From contig NZ_PPCV01000002.1 of NCBI RefSeq assembly GCF_004126535.1, positions 124,001 through 188,000 of the forward strand: a DNA stretch of 64,000 nt, in the 5' to 3' direction. Below the pieces are notes generated by a model. The model saw nothing but the letters and a program-made list of their open reading frames with translations, was not told the origin of the DNA and searched no databases. Positions 3,530 to 63,531 of this stretch are shown in pieces; position 1 is the stretch's first letter; each line of letters begins with the position of its first letter. The position numbers and the translations under genes were made by a program. Source of the DNA: Propioniciclava flava. GTDB taxonomy: Bacteria > Actinomycetota > Actinomycetes > Propionibacteriales > Propionibacteriaceae.

Positions 3530-3535
3530 TAGGGT
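3530..3535 (+). promoter_or_regulatory. -10 hexamer TAGGGT, leaderless type
   Basis: TAGGGT ends 7 nt before ATG 3543, the spacing expected when transcription begins at the start codon. No SD precedes this ATG. It also argues for 3543 rather than an upstream in-frame start. Confidence 0.55.
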
Positions 3536-3542
3536 CGGTCAG

Positions 3543-3938
3543 ATGAACGGGAATCCTGCGGAGATCACCCAACGGCTGATCGTCGGACTCGGGCTCCAGT
3601 GTGCGGTGCTGCTCCCGTTTGTGGTCATCGGGGCGCTGCTGATGGGTGTCCGGGGTTGGGGTGTGGCCGCTCTGGGAGGGGCCGCAGTGGGGATCGTGGT
3701 GATCCTGGGTGTGGGTGAACTCCTGGGGCTCCCCCGCACGGTCGCCTTGTGGGTGAGGCCTATCGTCACCCTCGTTGTGCTTGTCCCGGTCGTGGTGCTG
3801 GTGAAGCCGGACGTGGACCCGGTTGTGTTGGTGGCGATCGGTGTGCTCGTCAGCGTGGTCACCTCCTGGCTGTGGGCACGGCCGGTGGGCAGACAGGCCC
3901 GCCGGACGTCACCGGGGCAGGGCCAGGACGTCCCCTGA
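3543..3938 (+). CDS. Small integral membrane protein of unknown function
   Basis: I do not recognise the family. The 131-aa product has about four hydrophobic segments (roughly residues 12-32, 37-57, 66-84 and 90-108) and a basic, polar C-terminus of about 20 residues. The start is set by the -10 hexamer 7 nt upstream. An in-frame extension upstream to 3444 exists but would run into the ygfZ-like gene. Nothing in the neighbourhood gives a role. Confidence 0.65.
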   Translation: MNGNPAEITQRLIVGLGLQCAVLLPFVVIGALLMGVRGWGVAALGGAAVGIVVILGVGELLGLPRTVALWVRPIVTLVVLVPVVVLVKPDVDPVVLVAIGVLVSVVTSWLWARPVGRQARRTSPGQGQDVP

Positions 3939-3959
3939 TGTGTCACGCGCTTAACCTCC

Positions 3960-3965
3960 TAGGCT
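3960..3965 (+). promoter_or_regulatory. -10 hexamer TAGGCT, leaderless type
   Basis: TAGGCT ends 6 nt before GTG 3972 of the GTPase gene. There is no SD in the gap. Confidence 0.5.
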
Positions 3966-3971
3966 GAGCGC

Positions 3972-5096
3972 GTGACGCAGTTCTTCACCGAGTCGTTCCG
4001 GTCCGAGTTCGACAAGCAGGCCTCCCTCATGGGGCGGTTCAACCTGGGCGTGTTCGGCAAGACGGGCGTGGGAAAGTCGACGCTCATCAACGCCGTGTTC
4101 GGCGAGGAGGTCGCTGCCACGGGCATCGGCGAACCGGTCACCCAGGATTCGCACCTCTACGTCGGCATTCATGGCACGCTCGGGCTCATCGACACTCGTG
4201 GTGTGGAGATCGGCCGCGACGACAAGGCCCTCATCAAAGACATCAAGGGCTTCGTCGCGCAACAACGCAGGCTTCCGCTGCCCGAGCAGATGCACGCTGC
4301 CTGGTATTGCGTGCGGGCTTTGGATCGCCGCTTCGAAGATTCCGAGGCCGAGGTCATCAAGACTTTGGCGGCCCTCGACGTGCCCGTCGTCCTCGTGTTC
4401 ACCCAGGTCCCTTCCCGCAACGGCGTCCTGCACCCTGACGCCGAGGCGCTCGCGCGGCACATCGTCTCCTTGAACCTGCCCATCGTGGGCGGACGCCCGT
4501 TCCCCACCAACGCTTTGAGGGATCCCTTCACGGATCAGCCGCCCCACGGCTTGGTGGAGTTACTGAACGCCACCTTTCTGGTTGTCCCAGATGCGGTCCA
4601 CGCAGCTCTTGCCGCCGCGCAAAAAATCGATCTGGACGCCAAAGCGCGACAAGCAAACCGGGCGATAGGCGCCGCCGTCGGTGGAGCAGCCGCGGCGGCG
4701 GCCGTTCCGATCCCGTTCAGTTCGGCGGCGATCCTCGTTCCCTTGCAGTTGGGGATGATGGCCCGGATCGCCCAGCTCTACAGCATCCCCTTCGACCGTG
4801 CTGCGCTCATGGCCGTGGCGTCCACCTCGATCGCCACGACGGCGGGACGGTCGGCCGCCACCGGGCTGCTCCAGCTCATCCCCGGGGCGGGCACGATCGC
4901 GGGCGGGGCGATCAACGCCTCAGTGGCCTCGGGCTTCACCTTGGCGATGGGCCAGTCGTGGCTGGCAGTGTGCCAGCGCATCACGGCCGGTCAACTCGGT
5001 GCGATCGGGGAGGCACTGGACTCATCGGCGGTGAAGGCGCTGTTCGAGGAGGAGTTCCGTAAGCGCGCCCCGCGGGTGCGGCGTGAGCGCCCCTGA
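3972..5096 (+). CDS. Era-like GTPase with DUF697-type C-terminal domain
   Basis: The 374-aa protein has a P-loop GKTGVGKST at residues 29-37, a DTRG switch motif and a hydrophobic, Ala/Gly-rich C-terminal half (about 225-345) resembling the DUF697/YcjF domain that associates with membranes. Such proteins bind and hydrolyse GTP, but their cellular role is poorly known. The G4 position reads FTQVP, not a clean NKxD, so guanine specificity is less certain. GTG at 3972 is the start, supported by the -10 at 3960. It is followed by a strong hairpin shared with typA. Confidence 0.8.
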   Translation: MTQFFTESFRSEFDKQASLMGRFNLGVFGKTGVGKSTLINAVFGEEVAATGIGEPVTQDSHLYVGIHGTLGLIDTRGVEIGRDDKALIKDIKGFVAQQRRLPLPEQMHAAWYCVRALDRRFEDSEAEVIKTLAALDVPVVLVFTQVPSRNGVLHPDAEALARHIVSLNLPIVGGRPFPTNALRDPFTDQPPHGLVELLNATFLVVPDAVHAALAAAQKIDLDAKARQANRAIGAAVGGAAAAAAVPIPFSSAAILVPLQLGMMARIAQLYSIPFDRAALMAVASTSIATTAGRSAATGLLQLIPGAGTIAGGAINASVASGFTLAMGQSWLAVCQRITAGQLGAIGEALDSSAVKALFEEEFRKRAPRVRRERP

Positions 5097-5181
5097 CGCG
5101 CGATCAACGCCGCGAACGTGGAGTGATCGCGGCCTGCGAACAGCATGAGATGCTGCTCCGCAACCGCTACGCACATGATGC

Positions 5182-5220
5182 GTGAGGGGGCCGCACTCAC
5201 GACGAGTGCGGCCCCCTCAC
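5182..5220. terminator. Bidirectional hairpin terminator between the GTPase gene and typA
   Basis: A perfect 17-bp inverted repeat (arms 5182-5198 and 5204-5220, 5-nt loop) lies between two convergent genes. There is no U-tract on the plus strand, so it may act as a GC-rich I-shaped or Rho-assisted terminator. Confidence 0.8.
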
Positions 5221-5228
5221 ACCATCGT

Positions 5229-10100: not shown

Positions 10101-12552
<2,452 letters not shown>

Positions 12553-25119: not shown

Positions 25120-25125
25120 ACCCTA
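25120..25125 (-). promoter_or_regulatory. -10 hexamer TAGGGT, leaderless type (aldo/keto reductase)
   Basis: Minus-strand TAGGGT, then 6 nt, then ATG 25113; no SD. Confidence 0.55.
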
Positions 25126-26881: not shown

Positions 26882-26887
26882 ACGTTA
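26882..26887 (-). promoter_or_regulatory. -10 hexamer TAACGT, leaderless type (aldo/keto reductase)
   Basis: Minus-strand TAACGT, then 6 nt, then ATG 26875. Confidence 0.5.
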
Positions 26888-27024: not shown

Positions 27025-27030
27025 TAGCCT
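27025..27030 (+). promoter_or_regulatory. -10 hexamer TAGCCT, leaderless type (ligD)
   Basis: TAGCCT ends 7 nt before ATG 27038. This supports 27038 over the in-frame upstream extension that overlaps the divergent gene. Confidence 0.5.
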
Positions 27031-27037
27031 GGGCGCC

Positions 27038-29212
27038 ATGGCCGATGCAGCGATGCTTGAGGTTCCCGGGCCCCACGGGCCCCGCACCGTGAAGCTGTCC
27101 AGTCCTGACAAGGTGTTGTGGCCTGGCGCTGCCACTAGCCCCGCGGTAACGAAGGCCGATCTTGCCCGTTACCTCCTCGCCGTGGCCGAGCCCTTCCTCC
27201 ACCTCAACGGGGACCGTCCCATGACCCTCCAGCGGTTCCCCGACGGCATCGACGGGGAGGAGTTCTTCAGTAAGCGCCCGCCTCGGGGCGCACCCAGCTA
27301 CCTGCGCACCGTCACCTGCACCTATCCGTCGCGGCGGCGCCACGAGCAACTCGTCTTCCAAGAGCCCGCCGAGTTGGTGTGGGCCGCCCAGATGGGGACG
27401 CTGACCTTCCATCCCTGGCCGGTCCGCACGGCGAACCTCGACAACCCCGACGAACTGCGCATCGACCTGGACCCCCAACCCGGCCGCGACATCGTCGACG
27501 CGGTGACGGCCGCGCTGGCCCTGCGTGACCTGATGGCCGAGGTCGGGCTCGTCGCCTTCGCCAAGACGTCGGGCAACCGCGGCGTCCACGTGTACGCCCG
27601 CATCGCCCCCGAGCACGAGTTCGTGGACGTGCGCCACGGCGTCATCGGGATCGCGCGCGAACTCGAACGGCGGCTTCCCGACCTGGTCACGACGAGTTGG
27701 TGGAAGGAAGAGCGAGGCGCGAAGGTGTTCGTCGACTTCAACCAGGCCAACCGCGACCGCACGATCGCGGGGGCCTACTCCCCGCGTCCCCTGCCTGGAG
27801 CGCCCGTCTCCACACCACTGACCTGGGAGGAACTCCCCGGAACGCGTCCGGCGGATTGGACGATCCACACCGTCCCTGGCCTTCTGCAGGAGCGCGGGGA
27901 CGCCTGGGCTGGGATCGACGCCCATGTCGGCCACCTGACGGGGGCCCTGGCGCTGTGGGAGGCCGACCTGGAACGCGGCCTGGGGGAACTCAACTATCCG
28001 CCCGACTACCCCAAGATGCCCGGCGAACCGCCCCGCGTCCCGCCCAGCCGCCGCAAGGCCGACCGTCCTGAGGCCGATTACCTGGCGCCGAAAGCGGAGC
28101 GGGACGCCGACTGGGGCATGCCCATCGTGCCGCCCTATGGCCCCATGCTGGCCAAGCTGGTCAAGGAGTTCCCGAGCGCCGATGTCCTCTTCGAACCCAA
28201 GTGGGACGGGTTCCGCAGCATCATCTGGCGGTCGGGGGACCGGGTGGAACTCGGCAGCCGGAACAGCCGCCCGCTGACCAGGTACTTCCCCGAACTGGTC
28301 GAGGCGGTCAAGGCCAGCTTCCCGGAGCGGGCGTGCATCGACGGCGAGATCATCATGGTTGATCCGCACACCGGCGATCGGCTCAACTTCGACCTGCTGC
28401 AGCAACGCATCCATCCTGCCGCCTCGCGGATCGCGAAACTGGCCCGCGAGGCCCCGGCGAGCTTCGTCGCCTTCGACCTGCTCGCCCTCGGCGAGGACAA
28501 CTACGCCGAGCGTCCCTTCGCTGAGCGCCGTGCCGCCTTGGAGCAAGCCCTCGCGCACGCGCGCCCCCCGATCTACCTCACCCGGACCACCCGCGACCGC
28601 GAGTTGGCCCGGCAGTGGTTCACGCAGTTCGAGGGGGCGGGGCTGGATGGCGTCATCGCCAAGCCGGTGGACGCGGCCTATGCCGAAGACAAGCGCGTCA
28701 TGTTCAAGATCAAGCACGAACGCACCGCCGACTGTGTGGTGGCCGGGTACCGGCTCTACCGCGATGAACCCGACGCGATCGGCTCGCTCCTGTTGGGGCT
28801 CTACACCCCGCAGGGGAACCTCAACTCGGTCGGCGTCATCGGGGCCTTCCCCCTGGCCCGGCGGCGCGAACTGTTCGCCGAACTGCAACCGCTCGTGACG
28901 ACGCTGGAGGATCACCCCTGGTCGTGGGCGGCCCCGCAGGAGTCCTCGCCCGATAACCGGGATCGTTCCGCACCTCGGACGCCGACCGCTGCCGCCCACA
29001 GCCGCTGGAATGCGAAGAAGGATCTCTCCTTCACACCCCTGCGCCCCGAGCGCGTTGTCGAGGTGCGCTACGAGCACATGGAGGGGGAGCGGTTCCGGCA
29101 CACCGCTCAGTTCTCGCGCTGGCGCCCGGACCGTACCCCGCAGTCGTGCACCTATGCCCAACTGGAGGAACCGGTCAGCTACGACCTCGACGACGTCTTG
29201 GGCACAGCCTGA
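27038..29212 (+). CDS. ligD: NHEJ DNA ligase LigD with polymerase and ligase domains
   Basis: The 724-aa protein joins a primase-like polymerase domain (about 1-300: LSSPDKVLWPGA, FFSKRPPRGAPSY, catalytic acidic pair in RIDLDPQP, KTSGNRGVHV) to an ATP-dependent ligase (about 365-700) whose nucleotidyl lysine is Lys388 in FEPKWDGFR. The 3'-phosphoesterase domain found in mycobacterial LigD is absent: the linker between the domains is short and lacks its His/Asp motifs. The enzyme would repair double-strand breaks together with Ku, but no ku gene is in the window. The C-terminal OB part ends SYDLDDVLG. Confidence 0.93.
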   Translation: MADAAMLEVPGPHGPRTVKLSSPDKVLWPGAATSPAVTKADLARYLLAVAEPFLHLNGDRPMTLQRFPDGIDGEEFFSKRPPRGAPSYLRTVTCTYPSRRRHEQLVFQEPAELVWAAQMGTLTFHPWPVRTANLDNPDELRIDLDPQPGRDIVDAVTAALALRDLMAEVGLVAFAKTSGNRGVHVYARIAPEHEFVDVRHGVIGIARELERRLPDLVTTSWWKEERGAKVFVDFNQANRDRTIAGAYSPRPLPGAPVSTPLTWEELPGTRPADWTIHTVPGLLQERGDAWAGIDAHVGHLTGALALWEADLERGLGELNYPPDYPKMPGEPPRVPPSRRKADRPEADYLAPKAERDADWGMPIVPPYGPMLAKLVKEFPSADVLFEPKWDGFRSIIWRSGDRVELGSRNSRPLTRYFPELVEAVKASFPERACIDGEIIMVDPHTGDRLNFDLLQQRIHPAASRIAKLAREAPASFVAFDLLALGEDNYAERPFAERRAALEQALAHARPPIYLTRTTRDRELARQWFTQFEGAGLDGVIAKPVDAAYAEDKRVMFKIKHERTADCVVAGYRLYRDEPDAIGSLLLGLYTPQGNLNSVGVIGAFPLARRRELFAELQPLVTTLEDHPWSWAAPQESSPDNRDRSAPRTPTAAAHSRWNAKKDLSFTPLRPERVVEVRYEHMEGERFRHTAQFSRWRPDRTPQSCTYAQLEEPVSYDLDDVLGTA

Positions 29213-30667: not shown

Positions 30668-30673
30668 AGCTTA
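30668..30673 (-). promoter_or_regulatory. -10 hexamer TAAGCT, leaderless type (GT28 gene)
   Basis: Minus-strand TAAGCT, then 6 nt, then ATG 30661. Confidence 0.55.
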
Positions 30674-30772: not shown

Positions 30773-30778
30773 TAAACT
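30773..30778 (+). promoter_or_regulatory. -10 hexamer TAAACT, leaderless type (gpmA)
   Basis: TAAACT ends 7 nt before ATG 30786. The in-frame GTG at 30780 lies only 1 nt from the hexamer and would not be in the transcript, which decides the start. Confidence 0.65.
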
Positions 30779-30785: not shown

Positions 30786-31538
30786 ATGACGTACAAGCTG
30801 ATCCTTCTGCGCCACGGCGAGAGCGAGTGGAACCAGAAGAACCTGTTCACCGGCTGGGTGGACGTCGACGTGAATGAGAAGGGCGCCGCCGAAGCCGTCC
30901 GGGCTGGCGAGCTGCTCAAGGAGCAGGGCCTGCTGCCCGAGAAGCTGCACACCTCGCTGCTGCGCCGCGCCATCCACACCGCCTACACCGCCCTCGACGT
31001 GGCTGATCGGCACTGGATCCCCGTGGAGCGCTCGTGGCGCCTCAACGAGCGTCACTACGGCGCTTTGCAGGGCCTCAACAAGTCCGAGACGCTGGAGAAG
31101 TACGGCGAGAAGCAGTTCATGGAGTGGCGTCGCAGCTACGACGTCCCGCCGCCCCCGCTGGACAAAGACGCCGAGTTCAGCCAGTGGAATGACCCCCGCT
31201 ACGCCGACATTCCCGAGGACGAGCGTCCCCAGACCGAATGCCTCGCCGACGTCGTCGTGCGGATGCTTCCCTACTGGGAGAGCAACATCAAGCCCGACCT
31301 GGCCGCAGGCAAGACGGTCCTGGTGACGGCGCACGGCAACTCGCTGCGCGCGCTGGTCAAGCACCTCGACGAGATCAGCGACGCCGACATCGCCGGGCTG
31401 AACATCCCCACCGGCATCCCGCTGTTCTACGAACTCGACGAGAACTTCAAGCCTGTCACCAAGGGTGGCCGCTACCTCGACCCGGAGGCCGCGAAGGCGT
31501 CCATCGAGGCCGTGAAGAACCAGGGCAAGAAGAAGTAG
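30786..31538 (+). CDS. gpmA: 2,3-bisphosphoglycerate-dependent phosphoglycerate mutase
   Basis: The 250-aa glycolytic enzyme interconverts 3- and 2-phosphoglycerate through a phosphohistidine. The N-terminal [19 protein letters not shown] contains the catalytic RHGES histidine; [24 protein letters not shown] and [11 protein letters not shown] (second histidine) are intact. ATG 30786 is the start, as judged from the -10 spacing. In mycobacteria gpm1 also precedes senX3-regX3, so this synteny is conserved here with phoU inserted in divergent orientation. Confidence 0.97.
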
Positions 31539-32453: not shown

Positions 32454-32459
32454 TATGAT
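32454..32459 (+). promoter_or_regulatory. -10 hexamer TATGAT, leaderless type (senX3)
   Basis: TATGAT ends 6 nt before GTG 32466. A GGGGAGG stretch lies upstream of the hexamer and so would not be in the mRNA. Confidence 0.6.
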
Positions 32460-32465: not shown

Positions 32466-33590
32466 GTGACTCCCGCTATGGCCGCCGCGCTCGGCGTCGT
32501 GGTCGGGGCCGTGTTCGCCACGATCGCCACCCATGTCGCGATGCGTATCCGGCTGGCCGCGCCCCCGCCTGACCCCGGTCCCGAACGCCAACGCGTCCTG
32601 GACGCCCTGCGTGCGGGCGGCGTCCTGGTCGGCGATCAAGACGAAATCCTCGGCGCGAATACGGCGGCTGCTGACCTTGGCCTGGTCCGCGGGGACCGGG
32701 TGGCGATACCGGCCCTGCTGGAACTGGTTCGCGAGGTGCGTCGCGATGGGGAAACGGCCGCAGTCAACCTCGATCAGACGCGGTCAGGACGCACGGGGCA
32801 GCGCCTCGCCGTGCGTGTCGTGCGCCTCGATGATGGCGTCGTGCTCGTCGTGGCGGACGATCGGGCGGCCGCCCTGCGCGTGGAGGCTTCGGCGCGGGAC
32901 TTCATGGCCAATGCCACCCACGAGTTGAAGACGCCGATCGGCGCGATCACTTTGCTGTCCGAGGCCGCCGAGCAGGCCGCCGACGATCCCGAGGCTGTGC
33001 GGCGCTTCACGGGCAAGATCCAGGGCGAGTCCGCGCGGTTGACGCAACTCGTCACCCAGATCGTCCAGTTGTCGCATGTGCAGGGCACCCAGTTGGCCAC
33101 CCTGAGCATGGTCGACATTGACGAGGTGGTCGCCACAGCGTTGGATCGCAGCCGTCACCTGGCCGAGCAGCGCTCAGTGAGCCTCACCACGAGCGGGGCG
33201 CGCGGGCTCAGCATTCGCGGTAGCCGCGACCAGCTCATCACGGCGCTGGTCAACCTGCTGCACAACGCGATCCACTATTCCGACACCAAGGCGCGCGTGG
33301 TCGTCACCACGCGCCTGGTGCCCTCCCCGGACGGGGACAAGATCGCGATCGGCGTCTCCGACAACGGCATCGGGATCAGCGAAGAGGATCAGCGCAGGGT
33401 GTTCGAGCGGTTCTACCGCGTCGACTTCGCCCGCAGCCGACAGACGGGCGGCACGGGTTTGGGGCTGTCGATCGTGAACGAGATCGTGGAGGCGCACGGC
33501 GGTTCGATCACCTTGTGGAGTCGCGTCGGCAGCGGTTCCACGTTCACCATGGAGCTGCCCGCAGCCCCTGACCTGGAGGAGGACGCGTGA
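32466..33590 (+). CDS. senX3: Sensor histidine kinase SenX3/PhoR type
   Basis: The 374-aa kinase begins with one clear membrane segment (about residues 4-24), a PAS-like region (about 40-125), then the dimerisation helix with the H-box NATHELKTPIGAI (His152) and an HATPase domain with NLLHNAIHYS (N box), VSDNGIGI (G1), VFERFYRVD (F box) and GGTGLGLSIV (G2). It senses phosphate limitation, likely through PhoU, and phosphorylates RegX3. The frame extends to 32388, but the -10 spacing selects GTG 32466. The stop overlaps the regX3 start. Confidence 0.93.
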   Translation: MTPAMAAALGVVVGAVFATIATHVAMRIRLAAPPPDPGPERQRVLDALRAGGVLVGDQDEILGANTAAADLGLVRGDRVAIPALLELVREVRRDGETAAVNLDQTRSGRTGQRLAVRVVRLDDGVVLVVADDRAAALRVEASARDFMANATHELKTPIGAITLLSEAAEQAADDPEAVRRFTGKIQGESARLTQLVTQIVQLSHVQGTQLATLSMVDIDEVVATALDRSRHLAEQRSVSLTTSGARGLSIRGSRDQLITALVNLLHNAIHYSDTKARVVVTTRLVPSPDGDKIAIGVSDNGIGISEEDQRRVFERFYRVDFARSRQTGGTGLGLSIVNEIVEAHGGSITLWSRVGSGSTFTMELPAAPDLEEDA

Positions 33591-38243: not shown

Positions 38244-38250
38244 ACGGCAC

Positions 38251-38256
38251 ACCCTA
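38251..38256 (-). promoter_or_regulatory. -10 hexamer TAGGGT, leaderless type (metallopeptidase)
   Basis: Minus-strand TAGGGT, 7 nt, then GTG 38243. It lies 12 bp from the plus-strand -10 at 38269, so the two promoters overlap. Confidence 0.6.
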
Positions 38257-38268
38257 GCGGGGGTGCTG

Positions 38269-38274
38269 TAGGTT
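38269..38274 (+). promoter_or_regulatory. -10 hexamer TAGGTT, leaderless type (DUF2207 gene)
   Basis: TAGGTT ends 6 nt before GTG 38281. Its expected -35 would fall on the start codon region of the divergent metallopeptidase gene. Confidence 0.55.
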
Positions 38275-38280
38275 CTCACC

Positions 38281-39969
38281 GTGCCGTTCACGCCATCGCG
38301 CCCTCTGCGCACCCTCGTGCTGTTCCTGGTCGCCGTCGCCACGCTCCTGGCGGGGCCCTTCGCGCGGCCCGCCTTCGCGGCTGCGCAGATCACCTCCTAC
38401 ACCGTGGCCGCCACCATTGCCGCCGATGGCGCTTTGCATGTCAAGGCGACCATCGCGCCGGACGCCGCAGGCGGCGATCTGGTGCAGCGCTTTGCGACCA
38501 GCGAGGAGACGACAGGCAACCGTTCCTACGCGTTCACCCTCTCGGATGTGCGCGCCACACGGGGTGGGGTAGACGCGGGGGCGTCGGTCGCGCAGCAGCC
38601 GGACGCCGCCGTGGTGACCATTCCGCTGACCAGCGCAGAGCCGGTCGTCTTGGAGTACACGGTGCGCGGCGCGGCCTTCGACAACGGGGACGGGACGACC
38701 GTGACGTGGCGGCTGTTGCAAGGGCTCAACCTCCCCGTGGAGACCTTCGAGGCCACCGTCAAGGCGCCCGCCCTGTTCACCATGATCGATTGCGCGGCGG
38801 GGTCGGCTACCTCCCCGGGAGCCTGCGGCTGGTACCGCGGTGGGACGCATGACGCTCCCGACCCGACCTTCCACGACGGCCCGCGCCGCGCCGGTGACGT
38901 GGTTCAGGTGACGTTGCGGTTCGCGGCGGGGTCGGTGTCACCGAACGCCGTGCTGACGCACCATTGGACGCTGGATCGCGCCCTTTCTTTGGCGCCCCTG
39001 CCCCTGGGCCTGGCGGCTTTGCTCGCCATCGGTGGCCTCTTGGGCCTGGTGTTCCTGTCGCGCCGGCTGCGCCGTGAGCCGTCTCCGGATCTGACTCCCA
39101 CCATCGTGGGCACGTTCCGCCCGGTCGGTCCTGGCCGCAGCGAGTTCGAGGTGTCGGACGATGTGCGTCCTGGCCAGGTCGGCACCTTGATCGATGGCCG
39201 CGCCGACCCGGTGGATGTCACGGCGACGGTGGTCGATCTGGCGGTGCATGGCTCGCTGCTGATCCGGGAGCTTCCCCGTGGCCGGTTCGCCCAAGGCGAT
39301 TGGGAACTGCACCTGCGTCACGACAACCCGCGCCCGCTGCGTCCCTTCGAGTCGACGCTGCTGGACGCGTTGCAGCCCCACGATGGTGCACCGGCTCGGG
39401 TGTCTGAGCTGGCGGGCCGTATTGGCGGCATCCTGCCCCGCCTGCAAGGGGAACTGTATGACGACGTGGTCGCCAGCGGCTGGTTCGCGCGGCGCCCCGA
39501 CGTGCGCAAGAACGCTTTCGCGGTCGCGACCTGGGTGGGTCTCGGGGTTGCGGTCGTGGCCGCGGGCCTCCTGATCGCCTTCACCGAGTTCGGCCTGCTC
39601 GGGCTCGTCTTGGTCGCCTTGGCGGCCGGTTTCGGCTGGGTGATCCAGGACGTGCCTGCACGCACCCAGGCGGGGGTGAAGGTGTTGACGGGGCTCGACA
39701 TCCTGCGCGGCCAACTGCTGACCCAGCCGACCGACGAAATACCGCCCGCCAAGGCCGAAGCGGAACTGTCGGAGGTGCTGCCCTACGCGATCGTTTTGGG
39801 CGGGCTGGGGCGCTGGCTGGACGGGTTGGCGGCCACGGATGACGATCCCGACCCCGACGAGACCGACCTGAGTTGGTATCACGGTCCTCAGGGCTGGCAG
39901 TTGTCCGATCTGCCGGAGTCGCTGCGCCACTTCATCACCACCGTTGAGGGACGCCTCCTCGAACGCTGA
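38281..39969 (+). CDS. DUF2207-type membrane protein
   Basis: The 562-aa protein has a Sec signal peptide (first 33 residues, cleavage likely after ARPAFA), an extracellular beta-rich domain to about 225, a membrane segment (about 237-260), a cytoplasmic winged region (about 262-415) and two more membrane segments (about 418-460). The last 80 residues include SELSEVLPYAIVLG-like and RWLDGLAA motifs seen in DUF2207 proteins. Function is unknown. The gene is divergent from the metallopeptidase and convergent with glyA. Confidence 0.83.
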   Translation: MPFTPSRPLRTLVLFLVAVATLLAGPFARPAFAAAQITSYTVAATIAADGALHVKATIAPDAAGGDLVQRFATSEETTGNRSYAFTLSDVRATRGGVDAGASVAQQPDAAVVTIPLTSAEPVVLEYTVRGAAFDNGDGTTVTWRLLQGLNLPVETFEATVKAPALFTMIDCAAGSATSPGACGWYRGGTHDAPDPTFHDGPRRAGDVVQVTLRFAAGSVSPNAVLTHHWTLDRALSLAPLPLGLAALLAIGGLLGLVFLSRRLRREPSPDLTPTIVGTFRPVGPGRSEFEVSDDVRPGQVGTLIDGRADPVDVTATVVDLAVHGSLLIRELPRGRFAQGDWELHLRHDNPRPLRPFESTLLDALQPHDGAPARVSELAGRIGGILPRLQGELYDDVVASGWFARRPDVRKNAFAVATWVGLGVAVVAAGLLIAFTEFGLLGLVLVALAAGFGWVIQDVPARTQAGVKVLTGLDILRGQLLTQPTDEIPPAKAEAELSEVLPYAIVLGGLGRWLDGLAATDDDPDPDETDLSWYHGPQGWQLSDLPESLRHFITTVEGRLLER

Positions 39970-45855: not shown

Positions 45856-45861
45856 ATCCTA
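45856..45861 (-). promoter_or_regulatory. -10 hexamer TAGGAT, leaderless type (cysS)
   Basis: Minus-strand TAGGAT, 6 nt, then GTG 45849. Confidence 0.6.
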
Positions 45862-47418: not shown

Positions 47419-48519
47419 TCAGTCGCTGATCCGCTTGCTGGACGCGTTGGAGAACACGTGCAGCGAGTCGGGCGTCGGACGCAGGCGAACCGTCTGGTTC
47501 GGTGCGAGCGGGTGACGCGACTGCAGGCGGGCGACGATCTGCGGAGCGTTGAGCTTCTCCTCGTCCGACAGGCCCGCACGGGTGCCGTACAGGTAGGAGT
47601 CGGCGCCGAGTTCCTCGACCAGGGCGATCTCGACGGCGATGCCGTCGTTGCCTTCGGCCGGGACGAAGGTCTCCGGGCGAATGCCGAGCGTCAGATCCGA
47701 CTCGCCGCTTGTCTTGGCGAGCACCTCACGGGCCACCGGGACGACGTAGTCGCCGACCTGGACGCCACCCTCGACGATCTTGCCGGGGATGAGGTTCATG
47801 GCCGGGGAGCCGATGAAGCCTGCGACGAACAGGTTGTCGGGACGGTCGTACAGCGCCAGCGGAGAATCCACCTGCTGCAGGACGCCGTCCTTCATGACCG
47901 CGACGCGGTCACCCATCGTCATGGCCTCGATCTGGTCGTGGGTCACGTAGACGGTGGTGACGCCCAGGCGGGACTGCAGTGCGGCGATCTGGGTACGGGT
48001 CGACACGCGGAGCTTCGCGTCCAGGTTGGACAACGGCTCATCCATCAAGAAGACCTGCGGCTGGCGGACGATGGCGCGGCCCATGGCGACGCGCTGGCGC
48101 TGGCCACCGGAGAGGGCCTTCGGCTTGCGGGAGAGGAAGTCTTCGAGGCCCAGCAGCTTGGCGGCCTCCAGGACGCGCTTCTCGCGCTCCTCCTTCGGCA
48201 CGTTCTGCATCTTCAACGCGAAGCCCATGTTGTCCGCAACCGTCATGTGCGGGTACAGGGCGTAGTTCTGGAACACCATCGCGATGTCGCGGTCCTTCGG
48301 GGGAAGGTCGGTGACGTCGCGGTCGCCGATGGTGATGGACCCTGCGTTGACCTCTTCGAGGCCAGCGAGCATGCGCAGGGAGGTGGACTTGCCACAGCCG
48401 GAGGGGCCGACGAGAACCATGAACTCGCCATCGCCGATTTCCAAGTTGAGCTTGTCAACGGCGGGGTGATCGGCACCCGGGTACACACGGGTGGCGTCCT
48501 TAAACGAAACAGCGGCCAT
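47419..48519 (-). CDS. Carbohydrate ABC transporter ATP-binding protein (MsmX/UgpC/MalK type)
   Basis: The 366-aa ATPase energises one or more sugar importers. Walker A GPSGCGKST, Q-loop, signature LSGGQRQRVAMGRAI, Walker B VFLMDEPLSNLDA and the switch His in YVTHDQ are intact, followed by the MalK-type regulatory OB domain (from about 240). No permease or binding protein gene is nearby, so it is probably a shared ATPase serving several sugar transporters, as MsmX does in Bacillus. ATG 48519 follows AAAGGAG at 8 nt; the frame continues to 48537. Confidence 0.94.
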   Translation of the reverse strand: MAAVSFKDATRVYPGADHPAVDKLNLEIGDGEFMVLVGPSGCGKSTSLRMLAGLEEVNAGSITIGDRDVTDLPPKDRDIAMVFQNYALYPHMTVADNMGFALKMQNVPKEEREKRVLEAAKLLGLEDFLSRKPKALSGGQRQRVAMGRAIVRQPQVFLMDEPLSNLDAKLRVSTRTQIAALQSRLGVTTVYVTHDQIEAMTMGDRVAVMKDGVLQQVDSPLALYDRPDNLFVAGFIGSPAMNLIPGKIVEGGVQVGDYVVPVAREVLAKTSGESDLTLGIRPETFVPAEGNDGIAVEIALVEELGADSYLYGTRAGLSDEEKLNAPQIVARLQSRHPLAPNQTVRLRPTPDSLHVFSNASSKRISD

Positions 48520-48698
48520 CGCCGCACTCCTTTCCACGGGCAGGTACGTGCCCGACGATCCTTGGTGGAACCGACCGCACCTTCACGGTCTAGCGCCATC
48601 TAAGCACGTCCGGTGACACTGCGGCGACTTCGCAGCGAAGCTCTCGAGGTGCTGTCCGGAGGCTGTTTTGGTCAGGCCAATCGGGTAGTGTGGCCGGG

Positions 48699-48704
48699 TA
48701 TTGT
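48699..48704 (+). promoter_or_regulatory. -10 hexamer TATTGT, leaderless type (DedA-like gene)
   Basis: TATTGT ends 6 nt before GTG 48711. Confidence 0.55.
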
Positions 48705-48710: not shown

Positions 48711-49478
48711 GTGAGCGAACAGCCCGATCCCGCCCTGCCGGACGCCTCTTCCGGAGACGATCCGGCTGGGGAGGAGTGGTGGCAGGCCGAAGGTATGCCG
48801 TGGAAGCACAAGCCCGGACGCGCCGACATCATCTGCTTGAGCGCCATCAGCGTGGCGGCGATCTACGGGCTGGTCATGCTTCCCTTGCGTCCGGTGATGC
48901 TGGGGCTGGCGCCGCACCTGCTGGGCTCGCTCGGCTACCGCACGGGGTTGGTGCTCGTGGGGGCCTTAGCTGCGGTGGGCGACCACTGGTGGCCTCTGGT
49001 GTTGGTGTTCGGTGCGCTGATGAGCATGAAGTTCGACTGGATCTACTGGTGGGCAGGGCGCCTGTGGGGCCGTTCGATCCTCGACGTGTGGGTCTACGGC
49101 AAGTCGCCGCGCACGCAGCGCCGTTACGAACGGGCCTGGGGGTGGGCGCGCCGCTACGAATCGTTGGCGATCTTCGTGACGTTCCTCCCGATCCCCATCC
49201 CTGCGGCCGTCGTCTACGCGGCGTTGGGCGCAGCCGGAACAAGCCTGCGCAAGTTCCTCAGCGTTGCGTTCGCCAGTGCGCTGGTGACGTCGGCCGGCTA
49301 CATGGCGCTGGGCTACTGGATCGGCGAACCGGCCGTGGCCGCCGTCGACACCTATGGCAAGTACCTGTGGTACGTCTCGATCGCAATCCTGGTCGGCATG
49401 CTGGCGGTCTACTTCTACCGCGAGCGGCAACGTGCTGCCGCGGAGAAGACGGGCGCAGCCCGCGCCGACCAGGACTGA
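48711..49478 (+). CDS. DedA-family (VTT domain) membrane protein
   Basis: The 255-aa protein begins with a polar, acidic N-terminus of about 40 residues, followed by five or so hydrophobic segments and a basic C-terminal tail. The central part (LVLVFGALMSMKFDWIYWWAGRLWG) and FLPIPIPAAVVYAALG resemble the VTT/SNARE-associated domain: the re-entrant loop with an acidic residue and a Pro-rich motif. DedA proteins are half-transporters or lipid scramblases that support envelope homeostasis. The GTG start is set by the -10 spacing. Confidence 0.78.
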   Translation: MSEQPDPALPDASSGDDPAGEEWWQAEGMPWKHKPGRADIICLSAISVAAIYGLVMLPLRPVMLGLAPHLLGSLGYRTGLVLVGALAAVGDHWWPLVLVFGALMSMKFDWIYWWAGRLWGRSILDVWVYGKSPRTQRRYERAWGWARRYESLAIFVTFLPIPIPAAVVYAALGAAGTSLRKFLSVAFASALVTSAGYMALGYWIGEPAVAAVDTYGKYLWYVSIAILVGMLAVYFYRERQRAAAEKTGAARADQD

Positions 49479-49497: not shown

Positions 49498-50160
49498 TCA
49501 GGCGCGAGCTAGGAGCGCGACCAGGAAGCCCGAGCCAGGGGAGTAGGGGCGCAGATCCCAGGTGCCAAAGGCGTCCTGGACGGCCAGCCCGGACGCCGCC
49601 GCATCCGCGAAGAAGTCGTCGAAGGCGTAACCGCGACCGGCGCCAAAGCCGACCACGGCGCGACCCTCGGGGGCGAGCCAGGAGGCGAAGGACGCCAGGA
49701 CGGGCCGTCGCGTATCGGGATGGAGGAAGCCCATCACGTTACCGGCGCACAAGATGACGTCGAACGGCTGCGGCACGTCGGCGGGCAACGTGACATCGGC
49801 GAGGTCGCCCACCAGGTAGCGCGGCCCCGGGAAGTCCTGCTGTGCGGCGTCGATCAGAATCGGGTCCAGATCGACCCCGACGACCGTGTGGCCACGCTCG
49901 TGGAGATACCCGGCGTGACGCCCCGGGCCGCACCCTGCGTCCAGGATGGTTGATCCGCGCGCGGCCAAGGCGTCCACGAGCCGCGCTTCGCCGACCAGGT
50001 CGGCCCCGGCCGCGGCCATGTCGCGGAAACGCTGGACGTACCAGGCCGAATGCTGCGGGTTCGCGGCGGTCGCCTCGGCCCACTTGCTCCGGGGGGTGCC
50101 GGTGGCGGCGCGGCCCACCGCGCCGAGCGGGTTGATGGGGCCGAGCTTGGAGGGATCCAC
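49498..50160 (-). CDS. Class I SAM-dependent methyltransferase
   Basis: The 220-aa Rossmann-fold methyltransferase has motif I ILDAGCGPGRHAGYL (about 72-86), the acidic motif II VVGVDLD and GDLADVTLP. N-terminal sequence SAWYVQRFRDMAAAGADLVGEARLVDAL is typical of an actinobacterial group whose substrate is unknown. GTG 50160 lies one base after the 3' end of tRNA-Thr on the same strand, so the two may be one transcript. A second GTG at 50118 is possible; neither has an SD. Confidence 0.85.
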   Translation of the reverse strand: MDPSKLGPINPLGAVGRAATGTPRSKWAEATAANPQHSAWYVQRFRDMAAAGADLVGEARLVDALAARGSTILDAGCGPGRHAGYLHERGHTVVGVDLDPILIDAAQQDFPGPRYLVGDLADVTLPADVPQPFDVILCAGNVMGFLHPDTRRPVLASFASWLAPEGRAVVGFGAGRGYAFDDFFADAAASGLAVQDAFGTWDLRPYSPGSGFLVALLARA

Positions 50161-50161: not shown

Positions 50162-50234
50162 AGCCTCCGACAGGAATCGAACCCGCGACCGTCCGCTTAC
50201 AAGGCGGGTGCTCTACCAACTGAGCTACGGAGGC
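50162..50234 (-). tRNA. tRNA-Thr (anticodon UGU)
   Basis: A 73-nt cloverleaf on the minus strand. The 7-bp acceptor stem GCCTCCG/CGGAGGC and D-stem GCTC/GAGC are perfect. The anticodon stem CCCGC/GCGGA has a C-A mismatch at its outer pair, and its loop CTTGTAA has anticodon TGT at 50199-50201. The T-arm carries GTTCGAAT. The discriminator is U, as is common for tRNA-Thr in high-GC actinobacteria; no CCA is encoded. Confidence 0.95.
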
Positions 50235-50360: not shown

Positions 50361-50366
50361 TAGCGT
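50361..50366 (+). promoter_or_regulatory. -10 hexamer TAGCGT, leaderless type (SMR pair)
   Basis: TAGCGT ends 7 nt before GTG 50374. The GGAG that abuts the GTG is too close to act as an SD. Confidence 0.5.
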
Positions 50367-50373: not shown

Positions 50374-50688
50374 GTGGACTGGATTGTTCTGCTGGGCTCC
50401 GGTGTCTTGGAGGCAGTATGGGCGACCGCGTTGGGCGCGTCGGCAGGCCTGCGACGCCCCCTCCCGACGGTCGTGTTCGTGCTCGCTTTGCTCGCCAGCC
50501 TGTACGGGCTGTCGCTGGCCATGATGACCATCCCCGTCGGGACGGCCTACGCCGTGTGGACCGCCACCGGCGCGACACTGACCGTCGTGTGGGGATTGAT
50601 CCAGGGCACTGAACCTGCGACCTGGCGACGCATCGGGCTGTTGTTCGGCATCGTCGCCTGCGTCGTCGGCCTGAAGCTGGTGAGCTGA
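50374..50688 (+). CDS. SMR-family exporter subunit, SugE/Gdx-like (first of pair)
   Basis: The 104-aa protein has four membrane helices and the SMR core: the essential Glu in GSGVLEAVWATAL (Glu13), then GTAYAVWTATGA in TM3. The EAVWATAL segment with small residues around the Glu is closer to the SugE/Gdx guanidinium-exporter branch than to EmrE. It forms a pair with the next gene, 1 bp apart, so a hetero-oligomer like YkkCD is likely. The exported compound is unproven. Confidence 0.9.
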   Translation: MDWIVLLGSGVLEAVWATALGASAGLRRPLPTVVFVLALLASLYGLSLAMMTIPVGTAYAVWTATGATLTVVWGLIQGTEPATWRRIGLLFGIVACVVGLKLVS

Positions 50689-53267: not shown

Positions 53268-53361
53268 CGGGAGCGCCTCCAAGCGTCGGTCAACGTCGTC
53301 GTGTCTCCCCCCATTAGACCCGGCGCCCTCCGGGCGGGCAACCCCGCCGCCCCAGGAGCGA

Positions 53362-53390
53362 ATGACACCGCTGTGATTCGCGCGTAAACT
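53362..53390 (+). promoter_or_regulatory. Promoter of the DUF3263 gene, leaderless type
   Basis: -35 ATGACA (53362-53367), 17-bp spacer, -10 TAAACT (53385-53390), then 7 nt to ATG 53398. This is the best full sigma-A-type promoter in the window and lacks any SD downstream. Confidence 0.75.
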
Positions 53391-53397: not shown

Positions 53398-53685
53398 ATG
53401 TCCGATGCCAATCCGATGATCGCTTCGTCCGGCCTGAGCGAGATCGATGAGCGCCTCTTGGATTTTGAGGCGTCGTGGTGGTCGGCGACAGACAACAAGG
53501 AGGCCGCGATCCTGGAGCGCTTCGGCCTCTCCTCCCCGCGCTATTACCAGCAACTCAACGCCCTGATCGACCGGCCCGAGGCCCTGGCGTACGCGCCGAT
53601 GCTGGTCAAGCGTCTGCGTCGTCAGCGGCAGCGTCGCCAAGAGCAGCGCTCGGCCCGTCACCTCGGGGCCCACTCGGTCATCTGA
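53398..53685 (+). CDS. DUF3263 small protein
   Basis: The 95-aa protein has the DUF3263 pattern: [16 protein letters not shown], then [30 protein letters not shown] and a strongly basic end ([14 protein letters not shown]). The middle reads like a helix-turn-helix (helices around AAILERFG and [11 protein letters not shown]), so DNA or RNA binding is plausible, but no function is known. It is actinobacteria-specific as far as I recall. A small hairpin GGGCCG/CGGCCC at 53770-53786 may end the transcript. Confidence 0.85.
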
Positions 53686-60303: not shown

Positions 60304-60309
60304 TAAGAT
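60304..60309 (+). promoter_or_regulatory. -10 hexamer TAAGAT, leaderless type (purine permease)
   Basis: TAAGAT ends 7 nt before ATG 60317. No SD and no purine riboswitch fold are seen in the leader. Confidence 0.6.
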
Positions 60310-60316: not shown

Positions 60317-61801
60317 ATGTCCTCCAGCACTTCGGCGCCCGTCGGCGCGCCACAAACCGGCCTTGATGGCTGGTTCGGAATCACCAAGCGTGGGTCGAGC
60401 GTCGGGCAGGAGGTGCGCGGTGGCCTCGTGACGTTCTTCACGATGGCGTACATCATCGCCCTCAACCCGCTGATCATCGGCACCACGCCCGACAAGACAG
60501 GCAACCTCATCAGCGGGCTGCCCGCGACGGACGCCAACATTCCGATCACGATCGCGATGGTGGCTGCGGCGACCTCGTTGGTCGCGGGCGTCATGACCAT
60601 CATCATGGGTGTCGTCGGCCGCTTCCCGCTCGGCCTGGCGACCGGCCTGGGCCTGAACGCGATGCTGGCCTACGTCATCGCCCCGCAGGTCACCTGGCCG
60701 CAGGCGATGGGCCTGGTCGTGTGGGAGGGCATCTTCATCCTCATCTTGGTGCTGACCGGTTTCCGGGATGCGGTCTTCCGCGCCGTGCCGCGTCCGCTGC
60801 GGACCGGCATCGCCGTCGGCATCGGCCTGTTCATCACGCTCGTGGGCCTGGCGGACGCGGGCATCGTGCGCACCGGCAGCGGGACGCCGCTGCAGTTGGG
60901 CATCGGCGGCTCGCTCATCGGCTGGCCGATGGCCATCTTCGTGATCGGGCTGTTCCTGCTGGTCATGCTGTACATTCGCCGCGTCCGCGGGGCCATGCTG
61001 ATCGCCATCGTTGGCATGACGGTGCTTGCCGTCATCGTCGAATCGGTGTTCCACGTCCCGGCCAAGAGCGCCGACTTCCCGGCCGGGTGGGCTCTGAACG
61101 TTCCTGAAGTTGGCCCCGGCGGGCTGTTCAGCCTCCCCGACCTGTCCTTGATCGGACGCGTCGACATGCTGGGGGCCTTCTCCGGAAGCGCTACCGCGAC
61201 CATCGCGATGATCATGACCGTGTTCGCACTGCTGCTGGCCGACTTCTTCGACACGATGGGCACCATCGTCGCCGTCGGCGCCGAAGGCGATCTCCTCACC
61301 GAGGACGGCAACCCCGAGCGCATCCGGGAGATCTTCGTGGTGGACTCGCTGGCCGCCATCGCCGGTGGTCTGGGTTCGGTGTCCTCGAACACCTCCTACA
61401 TCGAGTCCGCGGCGGGTGTCGGTGAAGGCGCTCGTACCGGGTTGGCGTCCGTCGTGACCGGCCTGGCCTTCCTGGTCAGCTTGTTCCTGGCGCCGCTGGT
61501 CAAGCTGGTGCCGTCCGAGGCGGCTGCCCCGGCGCTCGTCTTCGTCGGTTTCTTGATGCTCAGCCAGATCATTCACGTCGACTGGAGCGATCCTGAAGAG
61601 GGCTTCCCCGCATTCATCACGATGATCGCGATGCCGTTCTCCTACTCGATCACCACCGGTATCGGCGCTGGCTTCTTGTTCTGGGTGGCCATCAAGACCG
61701 CCCGCGGCAAGTTCAAGGACATCCATCCGCTGATGTGGGTCATCTCGGCCGCGTTCATCATCTACTTCGGCCAGGGGGCCATCAACGCGCTGCTGGCGTG
61801 A
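60317..61801 (+). CDS. NCS2/AzgA-like nucleobase permease
   Basis: The 494-aa membrane protein has about 14 hydrophobic segments and motifs of the AzgA branch of the NCS2 family: RGGLVTFFTMAYIIALNPLI, GLATGLGLNAMLAY, and in the substrate region LLADFFDTMGTIVAVG and SSNTSYIESAAGVGEGARTG. This branch imports adenine, guanine and hypoxanthine by proton symport. ATG 60317 is set by the -10. The in-frame upstream frame to 60254 lacks support. Confidence 0.93.
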   Translation: MSSSTSAPVGAPQTGLDGWFGITKRGSSVGQEVRGGLVTFFTMAYIIALNPLIIGTTPDKTGNLISGLPATDANIPITIAMVAAATSLVAGVMTIIMGVVGRFPLGLATGLGLNAMLAYVIAPQVTWPQAMGLVVWEGIFILILVLTGFRDAVFRAVPRPLRTGIAVGIGLFITLVGLADAGIVRTGSGTPLQLGIGGSLIGWPMAIFVIGLFLLVMLYIRRVRGAMLIAIVGMTVLAVIVESVFHVPAKSADFPAGWALNVPEVGPGGLFSLPDLSLIGRVDMLGAFSGSATATIAMIMTVFALLLADFFDTMGTIVAVGAEGDLLTEDGNPERIREIFVVDSLAAIAGGLGSVSSNTSYIESAAGVGEGARTGLASVVTGLAFLVSLFLAPLVKLVPSEAAAPALVFVGFLMLSQIIHVDWSDPEEGFPAFITMIAMPFSYSITTGIGAGFLFWVAIKTARGKFKDIHPLMWVISAAFIIYFGQGAINALLA

Positions 61802-61816
61802 TTCTTTCCTTCGAGC

Positions 61817-61847
61817 GGCCGGGTCATCTCCTCACGATGACCCGGCC
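61817..61847. terminator. Hairpin terminator between permease and hypothetical gene
   Basis: GGCCGGGTCAT (61817-61827) pairs with ATGACCCGGCC (61837-61847) around a 9-nt loop; convergent genes flank it. Confidence 0.82.
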
Positions 61848-61857
61848 CTCGTGCGTT

Positions 61858-62505
61858 CTAGGCGCGGTAGACGGCGACGAGGTCGGGTTGCTGACGCCCC
61901 TGCTCGCGTGCCTGCTGCGTCCACTGCGGGAACCCCTGCAGCCACTCGACGATGGGTGCTGCGAGGTCGTGATGTTCGGGCGTCAGCGCCGGGAGGGCTG
62001 CTTGCCAATGGGACGCCATCGCGATGGCCTGGGCGCCCCTCGCATAGCCGAGGGTCTGACCGGGTAGTGGTTTGAGGGGGAGCCCGATGGCTCGACGGAA
62101 CACACTGCGCAGCCCGAGGTCGGCGGGGACGCCGTGGGCGGCCAGGTCGAAATCGATGCTGTCCAGGGGGCCTCGGTCGACGGAGACCTCGAGGTGGCTC
62201 CAGCCATGATCGGCCAGCCATGCTCCCACCAGGGCCCACGCTGCGGACAGGCGCTCGGGGGGAACGTCACGACCATGGCCGACCGCATCGATGTCGATAC
62301 CGGTGGGGATCCCCGGGTAGACCACTGGGGCATCGGCGGCCCGCCGCGAGAAGGGGCCCAGTTTGCTCAACAGGCCTCCGCGGGGCGGGGGTGCAGGCCA
62401 GACGCGCTCGGCCACATCACGCAGTTCGGCGAGGCTGGCGTCGCTTCCGCTAAACACCTCGCGCACGTCGTCAATCGCTACCGCGATGAGGCTCACGTTG
62501 CCCAT
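61858..62505 (-). CDS. Hypothetical protein
   Basis: I do not recognise this 215-aa soluble protein. It starts MGNVSLIAVAIDDVREVF, with a mid-region PGIPTGIDIDAVGHGRDVPPERLSAAWALVGAWL and a DSIDFDLAAHGVPADLGLRSVFRRAIGLPLKPLPGQ-type segment (seen here as several shorter conserved-looking blocks). No signal peptide or membrane segment is seen. A TAAGCT hexamer ends 6 nt before ATG 62505, supporting it as a real, separately transcribed gene. Confidence 0.75.
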   Translation of the reverse strand: MGNVSLIAVAIDDVREVFSGSDASLAELRDVAERVWPAPPPRGGLLSKLGPFSRRAADAPVVYPGIPTGIDIDAVGHGRDVPPERLSAAWALVGAWLADHGWSHLEVSVDRGPLDSIDFDLAAHGVPADLGLRSVFRRAIGLPLKPLPGQTLGYARGAQAIAMASHWQAALPALTPEHHDLAAPIVEWLQGFPQWTQQAREQGRQQPDLVAVYRA

Positions 62506-62511
62506 ACCCGG

Positions 62512-62517
62512 AGCTTA
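62512..62517 (-). promoter_or_regulatory. -10 hexamer TAAGCT, leaderless type (hypothetical gene)
   Basis: Minus-strand TAAGCT, 6 nt, then ATG 62505. Confidence 0.55.
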
Positions 62518-62555
62518 CTCATGCGGCCTCCCGATGGTGAGCCTGGCGCCCCGGA

Positions 62556-62561
62556 TACACT
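62556..62561 (+). promoter_or_regulatory. -10 hexamer TACACT, leaderless type (surface protein)
   Basis: TACACT ends 7 nt before GTG 62569. It selects this start over longer in-frame ones back to 62134. Confidence 0.6.
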
Positions 62562-62568
62562 GGCCAGC

Positions 62569-63531
62569 GTGAGACTGAGGGCCCAGAACCGGATCGTCAC
62601 CGGCGCACTTCTCCTGTTGCTGCTCTTGGTTGTGGCAGGCGCCCTGTGGTCGGCGCCTCCGGCCCGAGCCGAGGAGCCGCTGCGGTTGGCCGCGTCGTCG
62701 CAACCGTTGGGGATGGCGACCGATCATGCACGCGGCAGATATTGGGTGCTGGACAAGTCCAGCGGACGCCTCACCCTGACGGCCATCAAGCCGGACGGCA
62801 CCGTCGAAGGGACGATGAACTCCCGCGACAACCTGACTAATGCGCAGGCGCTCGCCTTCGACTCGGGGGAGGCCTACGTCGGCGACATCGGTGGGAAGCG
62901 AGCTCAGGTCACCGTCTATCAGGTCACCGAGCCCTGGCCCGGGACGGAGATCCTCAAAGCCATTGCCTACCCGTTGACCTACCCCGATGGCAGCCACGAC
63001 GCCGCCGCGATCCTGGTCGATGGTTCCCATCGCATCTCGGTGGTCACCAAGGGCCCCAACCCCGGCATTTACCAAGCTGTCCCCACGCCGTCGCGTGACA
63101 CCCCCAGCCCCCTCACGAGGGTGGCGAATGCTCCCGACGGGGTGACCGACGCGGTCGTGCTGCAGGACGGACGCCTGGTGCTGCGCACGGCGACGACCAT
63201 CTACGCACTGGACGCCACCAGCTACGCCACCTTGGGTCAGGCTGACATTGGGGTTACGGAGCGCGGCCAGTCGATCACAGAGTCGATCACGGCCGGTCAG
63301 GTGCTGACTGCTGCGGGGCCCTCCGGTGTGGTGACATCCCTGGCCGTTCCCGGCCCAGCCCCGGCCACCCCGCAGAATCCCGCGACGCGGTCGGCGAACC
63401 CGCAGACCCAGGCGACCACGGATCCTGCCGAAAACCGCACGTTCGCTCAGACGGGGACCACCACGTCGGTGGCGATCGCCGCCGGGTTGGCCGCAGTCGC
63501 AGGCCTGGTCGTCGTGCTGCGCCGCCGCTGA
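62569..63531 (+). CDS. Secreted, probably cell-wall-anchored protein
   Basis: The 320-aa protein has a signal peptide (residues 1-34, hydrophobic core TGALLLLLLLVVAGALW, ARAEEP cleavage region). The mature part (about 35-245) has repeated strands such as RYWVLDKSSGRLTL and DAVVLQDGRLVLRT, suggestive of a beta-propeller. A Pro/Thr-rich stretch leads to FAQTG, a hydrophobic helix and RRR at the C-terminus, the layout of a sortase substrate (LAXTG-like, class E) or simply a tail anchor. Binding partner and function unknown. Start GTG 62569 by -10 spacing. Confidence 0.8.
   Translation: MRLRAQNRIVTGALLLLLLLVVAGALWSAPPARAEEPLRLAASSQPLGMATDHARGRYWVLDKSSGRLTLTAIKPDGTVEGTMNSRDNLTNAQALAFDSGEAYVGDIGGKRAQVTVYQVTEPWPGTEILKAIAYPLTYPDGSHDAAAILVDGSHRISVVTKGPNPGIYQAVPTPSRDTPSPLTRVANAPDGVTDAVVLQDGRLVLRTATTIYALDATSYATLGQADIGVTERGQSITESITAGQVLTAAGPSGVVTSLAVPGPAPATPQNPATRSANPQTQATTDPAENRTFAQTGTTTSVAIAAGLAAVAGLVVVLRRR

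Follow-up and report, generated by a model that had tools for sequence, protein, structure and literature searches.

TANNNT elements as predicted promoters of leaderless genes in Propioniciclava flava, and candidate divergent gene pairs on one shared -10

Why should eighteen genes in one stretch of DNA carry the same hexamer at the same short distance from the start codon? The stretch, hereafter the window, is 64,000 nucleotides (nt) of Propioniciclava flava (contig NZ_PPCV01000002.1, positions 124,001 to 188,000), and window coordinates count from its first letter. A preliminary description had proposed that the hexamer, TANNNT, is the -10 element of leaderless genes, as it ends 6 or 7 nt before an ATG or GTG that lacks a Shine-Dalgarno (SD) sequence. 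We conclude that the TANNNT sites are very probably promoters of leaderless genes, as judged from sequence comparison, and roughly one gene in six in P. flava appears to yield an mRNA that begins at the start codon. The conclusion is supported by a fixed distance, a restriction to in-frame start codons, the exclusion of SD sequences, conservation among relatives, and a counterpart elsewhere with a mapped transcription start. In the mechanism we favor, the housekeeping sigma factor would read TANNNT as its -10, with the A and the last T essential. RNA polymerase would then start 7 to 8 nt past the last T, at the A or G of ATG or GTG, and the ribosome would load directly onto the 5'-terminal start codon of an mRNA with neither a 5' leader nor an SD sequence.

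The eighteen sites of the window are as first described. With the gap defined as the number of nt between the last T of TANNNT and the start codon, all 18 starts had TANNNT at an exact gap of 6 (nine genes) or 7 (nine genes), and TAGGGT occurred four times among them. A hand estimate had put the chance expectation below one case, and it was correct: when the 30 nt before each of 61 window starts called by an automatic method were shuffled, the mean was 0.55 cases and the maximum 5 in 2000 rounds. Absence of SD sequences at the eighteen starts also held. A lenient 4-mer score flagged 2 of the 14 starts that it covered, 45849 for an AGGA within the -10 itself and 50374 for a 4-mer at long spacing, and the other four were checked by eye. 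Moreover, we rejected the notion that the window is enriched in leaderless genes, as genes led by TANNNT (TA-led genes) numbered 14 of 61 in the window and 202 of 1,064 in the sample by the same caller. That caller overlooked 4 of the 18 starts (38243, 60317, 62505 and 62569), and its counts are therefore low.

Does the element keep its distance beyond the window? Of a genome of 3.0 Mb (26 contigs), 1.164 Mb was sampled, and the window brought the total to 1.228 Mb and 1,065 called genes. In a motif-blind set of 980 ATG or GTG starts picked by coding score only (41% of the genome), TANNNT was found 62, 40 and 16 times at gaps of 6, 7 and 8 (118 starts); the remaining gaps between 0 and 29 had 0 to 6 cases each. 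An equal frequency at other distances, which the preliminary description had named as fatal to its claim, is thus clearly absent, and TANNNT instead peaks sharply at gaps 6 to 8. The peak was confined to the reading frame. In-frame candidate ATG or GTG codons near gene starts had the element 107, 85 and 24 times at gaps 6, 7 and 8, over a mean of 10.5 at gaps 10 to 33, and the two other frames had no peak at the same gaps (5, 4 and 4 with a mean of 6.0; 0, 0 and 1 with a mean of 2.2). Of 14,558 ATG or GTG codons located more than 300 nt inside genes, 17 had the element at a gap of 6 or 7. An automatic start model divided 1,064 genes into 202 TA-led, 516 SD-led and 346 with neither; three shuffles gave 29, 42 and 29 TA-led genes, and the SD-led class follows a lenient 4-mer rule that shuffles satisfy 258 to 306 times. 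The 202 TA-led genes start with ATG (124) or GTG (78). By method and background correction, exact TANNNT accounts for about 11 to 19% of genes. Related genomes behave alike, with 33, 9 and 1 of 319 motif-blind starts at gaps 6, 7 and 8 in G001, 15, 9 and 2 of 315 in G013, and an in-frame peak of 16, 18 and 6 in G006.

TANNNT and SD sequences exclude one another. An SD 5-mer was present at 1 of the 118 motif-blind starts with TANNNT at gaps 6 to 8 versus 233 of the 862 other starts; where TANNNT lies at gaps 14 to 33, 28 of 79 starts had one. Gene context points the same way. TA-led genes made up 27 of 358 genes that follow a co-directional gene by less than 30 nt, 28 of 80 that follow at 30 to 60 nt, 46 of 284 farther downstream, and 100 of 336 with a divergent neighbor. 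Being rare close behind a co-directional gene and frequent when divergent, they sit where a promoter is needed. The claim that most non-operon genes without an SD sequence fit the rule was only about half right: SD-less genes with a divergent neighbor comprised 100 TA-led and 85 unclassified genes, and SD-less co-directional genes at least 30 nt downstream comprised 74 and 115. Part of the unclassified SD-less genes may use CANNNT instead.

The sequence of the element itself resembles a -10. TAGGGT had been singled out as recurrent, and so it is (23 occurrences at gaps 6 and 7 in the sample), but TAGGCT is slightly commoner (25); the two, usually followed by G, are the top hexamers among the 202 TA sites. 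Loss of the first T was tolerated, as CANNNT occurred 34 times at gap 6 (mean, 8.6) and AANNNT 12 times (mean, 4.7). No SD sequence accompanied CANNNT at gaps 6 and 7 in 41 cases and, being both enriched and SD-free, CANNNT indicates that TANNNT alone undercounts leaderless genes. Single-base variants that differ in the A or in the final T gave no clear peak, the largest being TANNNG with 8 versus 4.4. This pattern agrees with a published description of the A and the last T as the key -10 bases. A base specific to leaderless genes at +4 was rejected, as A is common there in all classes (83 of 202 TA-led, 239 of 516 SD-led and 134 of 346 genes with neither).

Conservation was followed at the starts of orthologues. 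A filter reduced 324 gene-locus pairs to 169 distinct starts representing 12 of the 18 genes, after removal of 85 pairs with identity below 45%, 55 with an alignment starting past residue 6, 13 without an ATG or GTG within 9 nt, and 2 duplicates. TANNNT was present at gap 6 in 63, gap 7 in 62 and gap 8 in 6 of these starts; no other gap from 0 to 30 had it in more than 2. Thus, 125 of the 169 carry the element at gap 6 or 7. A looser test accepted any in-frame start within 60 nt, and its counts include chance matches. The window features are as follows, with orthologue counts at gap 6 or 7 from the filtered set.

3530..3535, + strand: -10 TAGGGT, gap 7; open reading frame (ORF) 3543-3938, 131 amino acids, no Pfam family
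3960..3965, + strand: -10 TAGGCT, gap 6; ORF 3972-5096, GTPase of the MMR_HSR1 family; 1 of 2 orthologue starts, and at the aligned start in locus L034 (looser test)
12476..12481, - strand: -10 TAGGGT, gap 7; rmlB-like dehydratase, 12468-11470; 14 of 16 orthologue starts
25120..25125, - strand: -10 TAGGGT, gap 6; aldo/keto reductase, 25113-24271; 1 of 1 orthologue start, and locus L035 (looser test)
26882..26887, - strand: -10 TAACGT, gap 6; aldo/keto reductase, 26875-25937
27025..27030, + strand: -10 TAGCCT, gap 7; ligD, 27038-29212; 2 of 6 orthologue starts
30668..30673, - strand: -10 TAAGCT, gap 6; glycosyltransferase, 30661-29231
30773..30778, + strand: -10 TAAACT, gap 7; gpmA, 30786-31538; 54 of 79 orthologue starts, and 14 of 14 loci listed in the looser test
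32454..32459, + strand: -10 TATGAT, gap 6; senX3/phoR histidine kinase, 32466-33590; 14 of 21 orthologue starts
38251..38256, - strand: -10 TAGGGT, gap 7; zinc peptidase (Pfam), 38243-36957; conserved with its divergent partner; 1 of 1 orthologue start
38269..38274, + strand: -10 TAGGTT, gap 6; DUF2207 membrane protein, 38281-39969; conserved; 1 of 2 orthologue starts
38244..38280, no strand: 37-bp intergenic region with two face-to-face -10s, both genes predicted leaderless
45856..45861, - strand: -10 TAGGAT, gap 6; cysS, 45849-44422; 22 of 22 orthologue starts
48699..48704, + strand: -10 TATTGT, gap 6; VTT-domain membrane protein, 48711-49478
50361..50366, + strand: -10 TAGCGT, gap 7; small-multidrug-resistance-family protein, 50374-50688
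53385..53390, + strand: -10 TAAACT, gap 7; DUF3263 protein, 53398-53685; 3 of 3 orthologue starts
60304..60309, + strand: -10 TAAGAT, gap 7; xanthine/uracil-type permease, 60317-61801
62512..62517, - strand: -10 TAAGCT, gap 6; DUF7691 protein, 62505-61858; 4 of 8 orthologue starts
62556..62561, + strand: -10 TACACT, gap 7; ORF 62569-63531, no Pfam family; 8 of 8 orthologue starts

The rule had also been used to correct start codons. Relatives back the corrections for rmlB, gpmA and senX3, whose names agree with the Pfam domains found, and back that for ligD weakly. The gpmA product shares 89% identity with its counterpart in a Propionibacterium metagenome-assembled genome and 87% with that in Propioniciclava sinopodophylli. 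For three of the four starts missed by the caller (38243, 62505 and 62569), relatives carry a -10 at the start originally proposed (looser test); for 60317, no -10 was found among the loci of that test. The zinc peptidase start at 38243 is further supported in that start and -10 are common to six of nine relatives. TANNNT is thus a practical aid to start-codon correction, in the window for rmlB, gpmA, senX3 and the zinc peptidase. Moreover, the promoters of cysS and gpmA, being so widely conserved, are well suited to studying why certain core genes remain leaderless.

Several observations weigh against leaderless initiation as we propose it. No -35 element stands out in the 202 TA-led genes. 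A pyrimidine at -1 followed by a purine at +1 was rejected as proof of a transcription start, as C is found at -1 in 68% of TA-led and 63% of SD-led starts. GANNNT was elevated at gaps 5 and 6, with 21 cases at either gap over a mean of 9.2, and 5 of 27 cases at gaps 6 and 7 had an SD sequence, which makes it a mixed signal. Six of the eighteen genes (3543, 26875, 30661, 48711, 50374 and 60317) had no orthologue start pass the strict filter. Finally, part of the orthologue starts have no TANNNT at either of these gaps, 6 and 7, namely, 25 of 79 for gpmA, 4 of 6 for ligD and 7 of 21 for senX3.

Alternatively, the -10s may be real and many of the genes may also have a longer transcript from an upstream promoter, such that the leaderless mRNA is one of two forms. 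We consider this possible but rather unlikely. In the LysG paper, lysE has two promoters, the second of which gives a leaderless transcript, and the gene at 3972 lies 33 nt past the end of the gene at 3543 and could be cotranscribed with it as well. SD sequences are nearly absent at TANNNT starts (1 of 118), however, and a longer mRNA would lack the usual loading site. Perhaps, transcription instead starts 1 to 5 nt 5' of the start codon and the mRNAs have ultrashort leaders, which we consider improbable. Gap 8 is enriched too (16 starts), and in Propionibacterium acnes 88 start codons follow a mapped start within 10 nt besides the 50 that overlap one, but gaps 6 and 7 dominate and match the usual spacing from -10 to start, and the two kinds of mRNA would be nearly equivalent in function. 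That TANNNT is a translation signal or an effect of base composition and no promoter at all would fit its fixed position relative to the start codon, but is hardly credible, as out-of-frame and internal ATG or GTG codons show no enrichment, and the element equals the mapped -10 of the family and favors genes that need their own promoter.

If TANNNT marks leaderless promoters, how close can two of them lie? In the window, the zinc peptidase (38243, - strand) and DUF2207 (38281, + strand) genes have 37 bp between their start codons and two face-to-face -10s. The -10s are 12 bp apart and do not overlap. The two genes are neighbors in nine relatives, and both -10s are present at gap 6 or 7 of open frames on the two sides in six of these loci (L199, L200, L201, L202, L203 and L205); the exact double pattern is missing from the other three (L204, L206 and L207).

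Tighter pairs were found by a scan of 3.9 Mb made up of our own sample, G006, G001, G013 and 80 loci. Thirty-five divergent pairs within 200 bp had TANNNT at gaps 6 to 8 and coding sequence on both sides, in a list that is incomplete, as the window pair is not in it (attributed to the coding filter). Seven of the 35 had start codons 19 to 25 bp apart, and none were at 5 to 18 or 26 to 31 bp. All seven, which include one cysS pair counted in two Nocardioides species, have overlapping -10s on both strands. Wrong-gap controls returned 0, 1, 1 and 0 pairs, one of them at 23 bp. Motif-blind starts gave dual-motif spacings of 45 bp or less in only 3 of 328 divergent pairs (19, 22 and 32 bp), and the frequency of such pairs is therefore uncertain. 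Examples are listed below, with trkA, APC permease, debranching enzyme and hisF named by reading the protein sequences, without a family search.

TAGAGTGTA, own contig C11, 260954-260973 (L168, L022): trkA and APC permease, 19 bp between start codons
TAGGCTA: debranching enzyme and hisF, 20 bp
AGTCTAGGCT: pair in G001, 22 bp
AGTCTAGGGT: beside cysS in Nocardioides, 22 to 23 bp

The tight spacing of trkA and the APC permease gene is not conserved. In a comparison of 30 loci returned from 57 genomes, the APC gene was found in 24 of the 29 other loci, and the spacing in these 24 was 65 to 213 bp. Palindromic -10s (TACAGTGTA, TAGAGTGTA and TAGAGTCTA) are nonetheless present in three other members of the genus, one of which has no APC gene seen alongside, and their presence suggests that the leader was lost on the trkA side in this genome. 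The debranching-enzyme gene has a patchy distribution, with matches in 11 of 24 genomes (this one counted), several of them only partial. By eye, we also note a gene for an Lrp-type regulator that lies 27 bp from an exonuclease-like gene (own contig C11, 317017-317044); exact TANNNT is missing there, and both strands have CANNNT-like -10s. G006 has a similar divergent pair at 25 bp, its apparent counterpart, likewise judged by eye.

Enteric bidirectional promoters offer a precedent. In the accounts of PMC12825309 and PMC10268837, a start spacing of 18 bp is the most common and spacings of 10 and 23 bp are also common. The likeness is a near-symmetric -10 read both ways; the difference is that both starts here would be start codons, such that the spacing would equal the whole intergenic region. 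The 19- to 25-bp distances here separate start codons predicted from the DNA sequence, and the enteric spacings separate transcription starts. The word "leaderless" was not found in the main text of either paper, and titles and abstract openings on leaderless genes with bidirectional or divergent promoters, among the matches listed, held no description of a shared -10 for two leaderless genes. We tentatively suggest, at somewhat less than even odds, that in leaderless-rich Actinobacteria the rule for start spacing becomes a rule for gene spacing. Divergent leaderless genes would share one symmetric -10 (TANNNTA, TANNNTNTA or ANNNTANNNT) across an intergenic region of about 19 to 25 bp, and polymerase engaged in one direction would keep the opposite one from being used, giving a mutually exclusive expression switch. 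Such pairs could arise when a deletion or a gene insertion removes the leader beside a leaderless promoter, as the trkA/APC case suggests. Of all these results, only the compact shared -10 could be new, and it is inferred from sequence in a few cases. If upheld, these pairs would, to our knowledge, have the smallest promoters of any gene pair, and they would lend themselves to asking whether polymerase that occupies one direction shuts off the opposite one.

Three other features of the window were noted. An inverted repeat (GAATGACA-CCGC-TGTGATTC, 53360-53379) stands just 5' of the -10 of the DUF3263 gene (start at 53398), and by eye near-identical repeats occupy the same position in the loci with a -10 match, which number 15 among 23 (this genome's own counted). 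The repeat is probably the operator of some regulator; a literature search for DUF3263 returned a cyanophage paper as its sole match. An msiK RNA (Rfam RF01747, 49.1 bits) is located at 48524-48579 on the - strand, directly 5' of the gene called at 48519 (- strand), and a tRNA gene at 50162-50234 (- strand) abuts the called gene that starts at 50160 (- strand).

Several known systems resemble the predicted leaderless genes of P. flava. In Actinobacteria, leaderless genes are marked by a TANNNT some 12 bp before the start codon, a general rule published in 2011 (PMC3160421). The account there matches ours in the distance, the lack of an SD sequence and the sizeable share of genes, and differs in nothing essential; its share is "more than twenty percent" compared to about 11 to 19% for exact TANNNT here. 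P. acnes (Cutibacterium acnes), of the same family, has the TAnnnT -10, ATG and GTG starts, and transcription starts on start codons: in PMC3848588, 50 annotated start codons overlap mapped starts and 88 more follow one within 10 nt. Unlike our case, RNA ends were mapped there, and a -35 of GnTTnG was derived from 92 translation-machinery starts, whereas TA-led genes here show no -35. Mycobacterium tuberculosis is likewise similar, with TANNNT, no -35, and tRNA synthetase genes that are often leaderless. Passages of PMC3898074 put the leaderless share at 26% of genes with a primary start, count 7 of 14 tRNA synthetase genes as leaderless, and describe juxtaposed divergent promoters as common. 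The same source has prpD and its divergent regulator both leaderless, and thus dual-leaderless pairs as such are known. It differs in being experimental, and the passages describe no single shared -10 for two leaderless genes.

One window gene, senX3/phoR, has counterparts with a mapped transcription start. The kinase gene at 32466 is flanked by a divergent phoU and a downstream OmpR-type regulator, as is senX3/phoR, and transcription of phoR in Streptomyces filipinensis starts at the A of the ATG behind a -10 of TAACCT; the same is stated there for S. coelicolor and S. lividans. Ultimately, the predicted leaderless genes of this genome are a further case of a mode already known in Actinobacteria, and they extend a known way of initiation to a Propioniciclava-like genome.

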